DNA of 64,000 nt from Halopiger goleimassiliensis (GTDB lineage Archaea; Halobacteriota; Halobacteria; Halobacteriales; Natrialbaceae), in assembly GCF_000455345.1 (NCBI RefSeq), contig NZ_HG315690.1, positions 2,828,339 to 2,892,338 on the forward strand. Reading direction: 5' to 3'. The notes beneath the pieces were generated by a model that was not told the DNA's origin, ran no database searches, and worked only from the letters and a program-made list of their open reading frames with translations. Below, one piece after another: positions 1,335 through 49,316 of the stretch. Position numbers and translations under genes: made by a program. Numbering within the stretch: the stretch's first letter is position 1; each line of letters starts with the position of its first letter.

Positions 1335-2080
1335 TGGAGCCGACTGTGGGGCCGTCGTTTAGCGACCGGATCGCCGCTGTAATCGAGAACAGTCTCCTCA
1401 CCGCCATCGACCTGATTCCGACGGTCATCGGCATGGTCCTGATCGCCTACGCGGGGCTGTTCCTGGGTCGAAAACTCCAGCCGACGATCACGAACGCCGG
1501 TCGTCAGATCGGACTCGACGAGAAGGTCCGCGAAACGCCGTTCGCGGCCGTCTTCCCGGACGGTGAGGACGGGGTCTCGCGGACCTTCGCGGGCCTGTTC
1601 AAGGCCTACCTCGTCGTCGTCGCCTTCCTCGTGGCCGTCGAGTGGTTCATGTACAGCGCCGCCGGCACCTCGCTGGTCTACGTGACGAACATCGGTCAGG
1701 ACCTCCTGAGCTACGTTCCGGGCCTCGTCCTCGGCCTGTTCGTCCTCTTCATCGGCTTCTTCGTGGCGAACTGGGCCGCCGAACAGGTCCGCGAATCCGA
1801 CGTCGCCAACCAGTTCACCCCCGCGCTGAGCGGTGCGACGAAGGCGATCCTCTACTTCGTCGTCATCGTCATCGGCCTCGACACGATCGACGGGATCAAC
1901 GCCGGCGTCCTCCACACGTTCGCCGAAGCCTTCGCCTACGCCGCCGGCCTTGCCGCCGCCATCGCTATCGGCGTCGCCTTCGGCTGGGGTGGCAAGGACT
2001 ACGTCGCCGAAAACATCGACGACTGGTTCGAGGACACCTCCGACGTCGCCAAAGACGCGGCCGCCCCCGGCGACGACTGA
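1334..2080 (+). CDS. Conserved-TM-helix (mechanosensitive channel-like) membrane protein
   Basis: This 248-residue membrane protein resembles the conserved TM helix proteins (PF05552) related to small-conductance mechanosensitive channels. Four or five hydrophobic segments lie at about residues 25-45, 95-115, 132-158, 175-192 and 200-222. They are followed by a GWGGKDYVAENIDDW block that is typical of the repeats in this family, and an acidic tail. The long MscS beta domain is absent, so it may sense tension or act as a subunit rather than be a canonical channel. It is translationally coupled to the leader ORF by TAATG overlap, with a strong Shine-Dalgarno. The channel assignment is by family; activity is inferred. 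Confidence 0.78.
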   Translation: MEPTVGPSFSDRIAAVIENSLLTAIDLIPTVIGMVLIAYAGLFLGRKLQPTITNAGRQIGLDEKVRETPFAAVFPDGEDGVSRTFAGLFKAYLVVVAFLVAVEWFMYSAAGTSLVYVTNIGQDLLSYVPGLVLGLFVLFIGFFVANWAAEQVRESDVANQFTPALSGATKAILYFVVIVIGLDTIDGINAGVLHTFAEAFAYAAGLAAAIAIGVAFGWGGKDYVAENIDDWFEDTSDVAKDAAAPGDD

Positions 2081-2097
2081 ACGCGCTCGCATCCGGC

Positions 2098-2118
2098 GCT
2101 TTTCGACGCGTTTTTTCG
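2098..2118 (+). terminator. Probable T-tract terminator
   Basis: Two T runs (TTTT and TTTTTT at 2111-2116) occur 20-36 bases after the channel gene stop. Archaeal termination commonly uses such T tracts without a stable hairpin. Confidence 0.4.
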
Positions 2119-2177
2119 CTCCGGATACCAGCGGTTGCTCCGATAGCCGTTAACGAAGGGGTCGTGTCGCTCGCGGA

Positions 2178-2231
2178 CTACTCGTCCGGATACTTCGGCT
2201 CCCGTTTTGCCGCCCGCTCGAGCGCCGTCTC
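2178..2231 (-). pseudogene. Relic 3' end of a diverged MBL hydrolase allele
   Basis: On the minus strand this stretch encodes ETALERAAKREPKYPDE followed by TAG, identical in protein to the last 17 residues of the intact MBL hydrolase that ends at 2332. The DNA differs at several positions, and each difference is synonymous, including TGA versus TAG for the stop. It is offset by 154 bases, not a multiple of three, from the live tail. It therefore looks like the tail of a homologous allele that evolved under protein constraint, left after a gene replacement, rather than a recent tandem duplication. Confidence 0.75.
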
Positions 2232-2331
2232 AGACCCACCTTTTTCCGCTCGGGTTCGCTCCCAGCGGTCGCTCACCCCTCGCGCAAAAATCTGGACCAA
2301 AAAGCCGCTCACTCCCGACGGTCGTTCGCGG
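2232..2331. other. Spacer between live and relic MBL tails
   Basis: About 100 bases carry T and A tracts (CCTTTTTCC near 2240; CAAAAATC and CAAAAAGC near 2285-2305) interspersed with repeated CGCTC-type words. Read in the direction of the MBL gene it contains GGCTTTTTGG and GATTTTTGCG, resembling T-rich intergenic words that occur downstream of haloarchaeal genes. It may act as a terminator for the MBL gene. No ORF is supported. Confidence 0.4.
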
Positions 2332-2943
2332 TCACTCGTCCGGATACTTCGGTTCCCGCTTCGCTGCCCGCTCGAGGGCCGTCTCCACGACGTCCCGCAC
2401 GTCGCCGTGGAAGACGCCGCCGTGACCCGAGTACATGTGCTCGACGCCCTCGGGCATGCGCTCGAGGAGGTCCCGGATGCTCTGGATGAGGCGGTCGCGG
2501 GACTGGCCGACCATGTCGGTCCGTCCGAAACTGCCGTAGTCGAACGCGCCGTCGTCGTGGACGACCACGTCGCCCGAAAACAGCGAGTTCTCGGAGACGA
2601 ACGAGACGTGATCGTCGGCGTGGCCCGGCGTGTAGACCACGTCGAACGCCTCGTCGCCGATCGTGACGGTGTCACCGTCCTCGAGCGCCCGCGTTCTGGC
2701 CGGGTGGTCGTCGTAGGCGTACACCTCGGGATCGAAGGCGTCGACGACGGCCTCGAGTTGGGCGACGTGATCGCCGTGCTGGTGGGTCAGCACCACGGCG
2801 TCGACGTCGTCCGCGTGCGATCGAATCTCCTCGACGACGCCGTCCCAGGCCCCGGCGTCGACGAGCGTCGTCCGTTCCCCCTCGGCGAGGAAGGCGTTAC
2901 AGGTGAACGTCTCCGCAGGTTCGGTGACGTGGGTAACCTCCAT
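2332..2943 (-). CDS. MBL-fold metallo-hydrolase
   Basis: This is a 203-residue metallo-beta-lactamase-fold protein. The metal-binding signature H54-x-H56-x-D58-H59 (THQHGDH) is followed by H108 (TPGHADDH), D125 (SGD) and H174 (SGHGG), so the full dinuclear metal set is present. The spacing fits glyoxalase II-like hydrolases, but the true substrate cannot be read from sequence. It stands alone on the minus strand between two plus-strand genes. Immediately beyond its stop lies the relic tail of a second allele, suggesting that the gene body was exchanged by homologous recombination. Confidence 0.85.
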   Translation of the reverse strand: MEVTHVTEPAETFTCNAFLAEGERTTLVDAGAWDGVVEEIRSHADDVDAVVLTHQHGDHVAQLEAVVDAFDPEVYAYDDHPARTRALEDGDTVTIGDEAFDVVYTPGHADDHVSFVSENSLFSGDVVVHDDGAFDYGSFGRTDMVGQSRDRLIQSIRDLLERMPEGVEHMYSGHGGVFHGDVRDVVETALERAAKREPKYPDE

Positions 2944-5066: not shown

Positions 5067-5335
5067 GAGCGTTCTGCTATCGTGGACACGAGGAGTGGCC
5101 ACGCCGCTCACGGGTCACTGGCTCACGGGTCACTGGCTCACGGGTCACTGGCTCACGGGTCACTGGCTCACGGGTCACTGGCTCACGGGTCACTGGCTCA
5201 CGGGTCACTGCGTTCCCCGTTCGCTTTCCGAGGGATTCGCTCTGCTCATCCCTCGCGTTCGTTCCCCGTTCGCTTTCCGAGGGATCCGCTACGCTCATCC
5301 CTCGCTTCCCTCGACCGGACGGCAGCGCGCGCCAC
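5067..5335 (-). repeat. Dispersed hairpin element, copy 1 (inverted, core replaced)
   Basis: The ends match those of the elements at 17862-18045 and 28185-28605 in reverse orientation. One end is GAGCGTTCTGCTATCGTGGA with GGAGTGGCCAC, and the other is GGCAGCGCGCGCCAC. The palindromic core and the complete 11-bp stem of the other copies are missing. In their place are seven copies of a 15-bp unit (5107-5211) and two 45-bp direct repeats (5211-5255 and 5260-5304), each holding a GAGGGAT/ATCCCTC stem with an 11-base loop. All frames run open through the repeats in several phases, which is expected for such DNA and is not evidence for a protein. The rest of the 4946-5490 gap shows nothing else. 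Confidence 0.75.
5107..5211. repeat. 15-bp tandem repeat, 7 copies
   Basis: Seven head-to-tail copies of CTCACGGGTCACTGG are exact apart from the last base of copy seven. The identity suggests recent expansion by slippage. Since 15 is a multiple of three, reading frames stay open on both strands, giving apparent HGSLA or TGHWL repeats that should not be called proteins. Confidence 0.95.
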
Positions 5336-48755: not shown

Positions 48756-49316
48756 TTACTCGAGCAGCCCCAGATCCTCGAGGCGAGAGACGATCTTGTC
48801 GACGGCGTGTTCGGCGTCTTCGGGCTTCTTGCCGCCCGTGATGACCAGCTTCCCGGAGCCGAACAGCAGGGCGACGACCTCGGGTTCGTCGAGGCGGTAG
48901 ACGAGGCCGGGGAACTGTTCGGGCTCGTACTCGATGTTCTCGAGGCCCAGCCCGATCGCGATCGCGTTCAGGTTGAGGTTGCGACCGAGGTCGGCCGAGG
49001 TGACGATGTTCTGGACGACGATCTCGGGGTCCTCGTTGACCTGGATCTGGAGCTCGCGCAGTTTGTCGAAGACGATGCGCAGGCTCTCGTGGACGTCGTC
49101 GGTGCTCTTGGCCCCGGTGCAGACGATCTTCCCCGAGCGGAAGATCAACGCCGCGGACTTGGGATTCTGGGTGCGGTAGACGAGACCGGGGAACTGTTCG
49201 GGGTCGTAGTCGGCCCCCTCGAGGTCCATCGCGACGCTCTGGAGGTCGAGTTCCTGTCCGATACCGGTCGACGCCACCACGTTTTCGATGTTGATGGTGT
49301 CCTTCGGATCCGTCAT
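48756..49316 (-). CDS. tbp: TATA-box binding protein
   Basis: A 186-residue general transcription factor. Two direct repeats of the TBP saddle are clear: FPGLVYRTQNPKSAALIFRS then GKIVCTGAK in the first half and FPGLVYRLDEPEVVALLFGS then GKLVITGGK in the second. It directs pre-initiation assembly with TFB. Its promoter is a good TATA box 29 bases upstream. Haloarchaea often have several tbp genes; this one has the regular, least diverged repeat structure, so may be the main copy (inference). Confidence 0.96.
   Translation of the reverse strand: MTDPKDTINIENVVASTGIGQELDLQSVAMDLEGADYDPEQFPGLVYRTQNPKSAALIFRSGKIVCTGAKSTDDVHESLRIVFDKLRELQIQVNEDPEIVVQNIVTSADLGRNLNLNAIAIGLGLENIEYEPEQFPGLVYRLDEPEVVALLFGSGKLVITGGKKPEDAEHAVDKIVSRLEDLGLLE

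Follow-up and report, generated by a model that had tools for sequence, protein, structure and literature searches.

A structured haloarchaeal element tied to duplicated 3' ends of core genes, and the ghost tail of an MBL-fold hydrolase gene in Halopiger goleimassiliensis

The nearest described relatives of the element discussed here (called E) are the SMRs, MITEs and PATEs of haloarchaea (PMC3119063). SMR-A and SMR-B of Haloquadratum walsbyi are dispersed, non-coding sequences of about 80-110 bp, associated with palindromes and with unknown means of mobilisation; they have terminal inverted repeats, make no target duplication and lie inside other mobile elements, SMR-A being nested in IS605/PATE palindromes (PMC3119063). 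MITEs and PATEs are also non-coding, hairpin-bearing and multicopy. MITEs have terminal repeats and short target duplications (5, 8 and 10 bp are the commonest lengths for Halobacterium transposons), and PATEs, with near-terminal palindromes as in IS605, have no target duplication (PMC3119063). Haloarchaeal transcription terminators have a T-stretch and a hairpin directly after the gene (PMC7237163). An element coupled to duplicated gene tails has, as far as our search of the open-access literature shows, not been described before: a search for the core motif string of E returned unrelated papers only, and further searches returned the SMR, MITE and PATE elements, not the arrangement tail-E-tail.

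The window (the whole 64,000-nucleotide stretch that was analysed) contains an intact gene for an MBL-fold hydrolase. The best NCBIfam match of its product is hydroxyacylglutathione hydrolase, at a score under the family cut-off, and a match to the gene was found in 100 of 100 related genomes. The features of the locus are these:

2332-2943, minus strand: intact MBL-fold hydrolase gene, 203 aa, from its open reading frame
2332-2385, minus strand: live tail (copy X1), the final 17 codons and TGA, from the tail comparison
2306-2331, minus strand: leader of E (CCGCGAACGACCGTCGGGAGTGAGCG), directly after the stop codon of the MBL gene
2235-2305, minus strand: core of E, with CTTTTTGGTCCAGA, a hairpin closed by UUUUU/AAAAA and the end AAAAAGGTGGG, from covariance model R1
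2232-2234, minus strand: 3-nt junction (TCT) from E to the copied tail, reading GGTGGGTCT and then GAGACGG, as in genomes G004 and G158
2178-2231, minus strand: relic tail (copy X2), a second set of the final 17 codons and TAG, from the tail comparison
2166-2176, minus strand: CCGCGAGCGAC following the relic stop, like the first bases of the leader of E; a gapped repeat reaches the leader

Live and relic tails have the same translation, ETALERAAKREPKYPDE and then the stop, and lie 154 bp apart from start to start; the relic is therefore out of frame with the gene. Over the 54 bases of each tail, seven bases in six codons differ, all synonymously (live/relic: GCC/GCG, GCA/GCG, GCG/GCA, AAG/AAA, GAA/GAG and TGA/TAG). 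The preliminary description of the locus was thus correct in reporting a second, out-of-frame copy of the final 17 codons and stop 154 bp on, with six synonymous codon differences including the stop. When direct repeats 60-400 bp apart were ranked over the 64-kb window, this pair came second, behind a 15-bp tandem repeat. Besides that repeat and a 40-bp pair at 48894 the window has no comparable short-range repeat, and an order-3 Markov null of the window gave no such repeats, even at a lower threshold. The duplication of the MBL tail is not a chance repeat. It may be added that the 15-bp tandem repeat (GCTCACGGGTCACTG, 6-7 units) and an adjoining 46-bp direct repeat lie between two genes, at 5106-5210 and 5211-5305, and that the 40-bp direct repeat at 48894-48933, with a spacing of 279 bp and a score of 31 in the short-range scan, is probably coding.

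The roughly 100 bp between the two MBL tails are a conserved dispersed element. When the genome was searched with the DNA of positions 2150-2420, the matches elsewhere were mainly to this interval and not to the tails. Given that the interval is an element, E, and not filler, the explanation of the ghost tail changes. In gene sense the order within E is leader hairpin, CTTTTTGGTCCAGA, another hairpin with UUUUU/AAAAA as its closing pairs, and finally AAAAAGGTGG. The leader, which in many copies starts 0-8 nt past the stop codon, reads CCGCGARCGA...GAGCGGC and is elsewhere a clean hairpin. Loops and arms are highly variable in sequence with pairing maintained: 8 of 15 predicted pairs show double changes (in a small alignment of 33 rows, from a model seeded with the window copy), and the outer-stem triplet covaries as CCA/TGG, CGA/TCG, GTA/TAC, GGA/TCC and GCA/TGC. 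The window core scores 91.1 bits (E = 3.4e-21) against covariance model R1, of which it is itself a seed; the other copies are independent. In window 2000-2500 no Rfam 15 covariance model matched at an E-value of 1 or lower, and at six other E loci no match reached the gathering score.

Many unrelated genes share one rule for the junction between element and copy, namely GGTGG, about 3 nt that match the gene, 1-2 extra bases (mostly C or T) and then the rest of the tail; it is visible in flanked loci, for example at window 2232-2240. A sequence similar to the CCGCGAGCGAC that follows the relic stop also occurs at two other loci (L015 and L201). T5 tracts are present in both orientations, in addition to the hairpins. 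Since T-tracts terminate transcription in Haloferax volcanii (PMC7237163), we infer by analogy that E acts at transcript 3' ends, probably as a 3' end or transcription-termination structure, whose T-tracts would serve the sense direction and CCACCTTTTT the antisense direction.

By covariance model, the genome of the window has seven strong copies of E. Five of these lie between duplicated tails of four genes, MBL, purH, hisH and thiolase, the purH locus having the form tail-E-tail-E-tail (three tails with two E between them) and hisH a duplicated tail with E between. The preliminary description had proposed a replacement of the MBL gene body that left the resident tail behind; the presence of the same arrangement at three other genes of this genome speaks against it. 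A cut through a thiolase gene by E, considered for the locus C2:307840, was rejected, as the locus has a normal thiolase end, duplicated and without truncation. A flank-blind pattern for the E core, run class-wide against one genome per bacterial and archaeal species, found only haloarchaea among the matches listed, from many families. Of 61 related genomes, 55 contain E according to the covariance model, at 1-45 copies per genome that has it; outside the order, the 69 genomes sampled from the rest of the phylum gave nothing but weak matches of 37 nt, in three of them. The genome with 45 copies (G065) belongs to another family of the order and is a possible place in which to seek recent spread. 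Another genome (G113) has an array of five E and six gene tails with 124-bp spacing and nearly identical units (L232). Five places in G142 (L226-L230) carry a multicopy repeat of about 160 bp (TACAGGCGGAGGCGTTACCGCTGCGG...) with an E-like core in which GTA/TAC replaces CCA/TGG; these near-identical copies were considered as an autonomous parent element and rejected, being a related repeat with no gene inside.

E and copied gene ends occur together. Among the matches listed, 116 unselected copies had enough flanking sequence. Direct repeats of 25-180 bp stand on the two sides of 54 of them, and in 53 of these 54 the distal repeat copy starts 0-7 nt past the end of E; of 892 randomly chosen positions in these loci, 9 attain the same score and none abuts. 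Counted from the genes, a downstream tail copy is found at 34 of 90 gene ends with E near, against 1 of 395 with no E within 400 bp. At most flanked loci the repeat spans the end of the upstream gene, to the stop codon or past it, and many tail pairs are 100% identical. The genes concerned are core genes: purH, hisH, ileS, pheT, gatB, dph6, etfA, malic enzyme/phosphotransacetylase, thiolase and MBL. Duplication is not obligatory, because about half of the copies are unflanked, and in 27 of these 62 a convergent gene has its stop codon at a distance of 0-4 nt from the AAAAAGGTGG end. Unflanked copies with this end against a convergent stop are seen at L078, L082, L083, L099, L116, L175 and other loci, often with the motif GTTCTAGAA. 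A module of gene tail, E and copied tail, with pairing kept and the copy starting at the end of E, recurs at many genes across Halobacteria.

We consider it fairly probable that such a module (gene tail, E, tail of the same gene) has the ghost tail as its distal part, and that the history of the module is one of arrival with duplication, later homogenisation and precise loss. E would arrive downstream of a stop codon, in an event that duplicates the gene end. Gene conversion and unequal crossing over would then keep the two tails similar, while recombination with alleles of other strains would bring synonymous differences into them. Recombination between tail and tail may finally remove E precisely and so produce a patchy distribution, a step modelled on the repeat-mediated deletions proposed for Haloquadratum (PMC3119063).

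At the MBL gene, E and a clean tail copy are present in 9 of about 66 genomes of the family (G000, G004, G014, G050, G058, G127, G131, G140 and G158), and three more have a degraded module. The module is thus patchily distributed in the family, and the relic is found in other genera, at a spacing of 149-168 bp and with the same, nearly constant right junction, GGTGGGT(C/G)N/GAGACGG (the slash marks the junction), a pattern that the preliminary description had itself counted against its reading. Each target gene likewise keeps its own E junction across genera. Three genomes (G123, G125 and G137) have an empty MBL site, tail-TAG-(C/G)ACCGCGAGC..., where G140 has E and a second tail, with 65 bp duplicated; G058 (filled) and G041 (empty) form a second such pair. 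Because the flanks are repeats, gain of E and its precise loss cannot be separated at these sites: an empty site looks identical before insertion and after precise loss, and no insertion is polarised. In G127 the array tail-E-tail-E-tail holds two different cores, of which one matches the E that G131 has in single copy and the second those of G130 and G054, as unequal exchange between alleles would produce.

These comparisons bear on the most probable rival, that of repeated and independent entry of E, as a site-specific insertion element, into the same tails, with 30-180 bp of target duplicated each time by means of a transposase, target-primed copying or microhomology template switching; the tails would then be similar through recent insertion and not through conversion. 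Such insertion would fit the resemblance of the copy in each genome to that genome's own gene, the arrays with n E and n+1 tails, and the common junction rule at unrelated genes. It is nevertheless unlikely. In G004 and G158 the E copies are orthologous, junction and downstream DNA match, and both genomes have the same ancestral difference, GAA in the live tail and GAG in the relic, so that they appear to have inherited one module. E copies from different species are also more alike when they stand at one and the same gene than when they stand at different genes (similarity 0.594 vs 0.504; 0 of 500 permutations), which favours old modules over constant re-insertion, and an incidental look near E revealed no mobilising enzyme.

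The differences between the tails provide the evidence for homogenisation. Live and relic MBL tails of one genome differ on average at 3.4 of 54 bases, compared with 11.7 for the tails of different E-free species. The distance to E-free orthologues is 9.96 of 54 for relic tails and 10.35 for live tails (p = 0.5); since relics are no further away than live tails, they look homogenised by recombination and not decaying. In G004 and G158 the two tails of each species share about four changes that are absent from the other species of the two; this one species pair is a clear case of concerted evolution. In 45 coding tail pairs taken together, codon positions 1, 2 and 3 carry 24, 17 and 106 differences (72% third), with 100 synonymous and 36 non-synonymous changes among the altered codons. 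The expected third-position share, about 48%, is our own estimate for a live gene changing mostly at third positions together with a free relic; the excess over it (p = 2.6e-9) is indicative, as the pairs are partly related. It supports, in a general form, the inference of the preliminary description that the copies were still coding during part of their divergence, for which recombination with alleles of other strains is the simplest source. Gene conversion alone was rejected as the source of the synonymous-only differences, because a relic free of constraint should take up new changes at all codon positions; that conversion within the genome does not by itself yield the third-position excess is a counterpoint to the module explanation too.

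Divergence while coding had led the preliminary description to its reading: a single homologous recombination with a related strain, leaving the resident tail behind. Several observations agree with this reading. The differences between the window tails are synonymous only, the pooled third-position excess points the same way, the window relic differs from the live tail of G154 at 2 of 54 bases and from its own live tail at 7 of 54, and haloarchaea exchange DNA by homologous recombination (PMC10085750, PMC12814878). A comparison over 54 bases, in a genus with one sampled genome, cannot prove a donor. A single replacement explains neither E itself nor the recurrence of the arrangement in many genera and at a large number of genes; many tail pairs are identical; and in G140, compared with G123, G125 and G137 (the one clade in which close relatives without the element are available), it is the live tail that is of the resident type and the relic that is the odd one. 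We regard this history as improbable, and a one-off allele replacement as an unlikely maker of the duplication, while exchange with other alleles probably does shape the duplicated tails; divergence during coding is retained, though not as a one-off event. That the 3' end was simply duplicated in tandem and then decayed is disfavoured and very improbable, for although the direct repeats are closely spaced and relics are visibly decayed in G054 and G130, the duplication is bound to E and relics overall are no further from orthologues than live tails.

The reading preferred here, a module of tail, E and tail, turns an apparent oddity of one locus into a rule for the whole class, Halobacteria, by which a structured intergenic element is tied to the duplicated ends of core genes. 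It raises the questions of how short non-coding elements spread without gene breakage, how gene conversion works over stretches of about 50 bp, and how 3' ends are formed in archaea. It is also a warning that ghost tails with synonymous differences only need not signal the replacement of one gene.

Some features of E recall integrative elements that insert in the 3' ends of genes and leave a displaced tail, with an intact gene beside the element, a tail copy at its far side and synonymous differences to be expected. E differs in being about 100 bp long, in lacking an integrase and in using many protein-coding genes. REP and BIME sequences are, like E, intergenic hairpin repeats near gene ends, but E is longer and has a different invariant sequence, and we know of no REP that duplicates the adjacent gene tail. 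Transcription terminators share the T-stretch and hairpin, and lack the conserved sequence, the second closed hairpin and the coupling to a copied gene tail. With the SMRs E has in common its size, non-coding and dispersed nature, haloarchaeal host, association with palindromes and unknown mobilisation; in contrast to them it is without matching termini, lies at the ends of housekeeping genes and is often flanked by long duplications (54 of the 116 copies). No terminal inverted repeats of the MITE type were seen in the 116 copies read by eye, which start with CCGCGARCGA and end with AAAAAGGTGG, and the flanking repeats, 25-180 bp long, gene-specific and including a gene end, are not the short duplications of fixed length typical of MITEs. 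As in PATEs and IS605-type elements there are hairpins, yet duplications are frequent. It is possible, though we put it forward tentatively, that E represents an undescribed class of haloarchaeal element, whose arrival would copy the adjacent gene end in a manner unlike known transposition and leave the gene intact, tail-E-tail then serving as a recombination cassette for the clean gain, swap and loss of E behind housekeeping genes. E belongs with the dispersed small hairpin elements, and there is a real chance that the process by which it duplicates gene ends is new.
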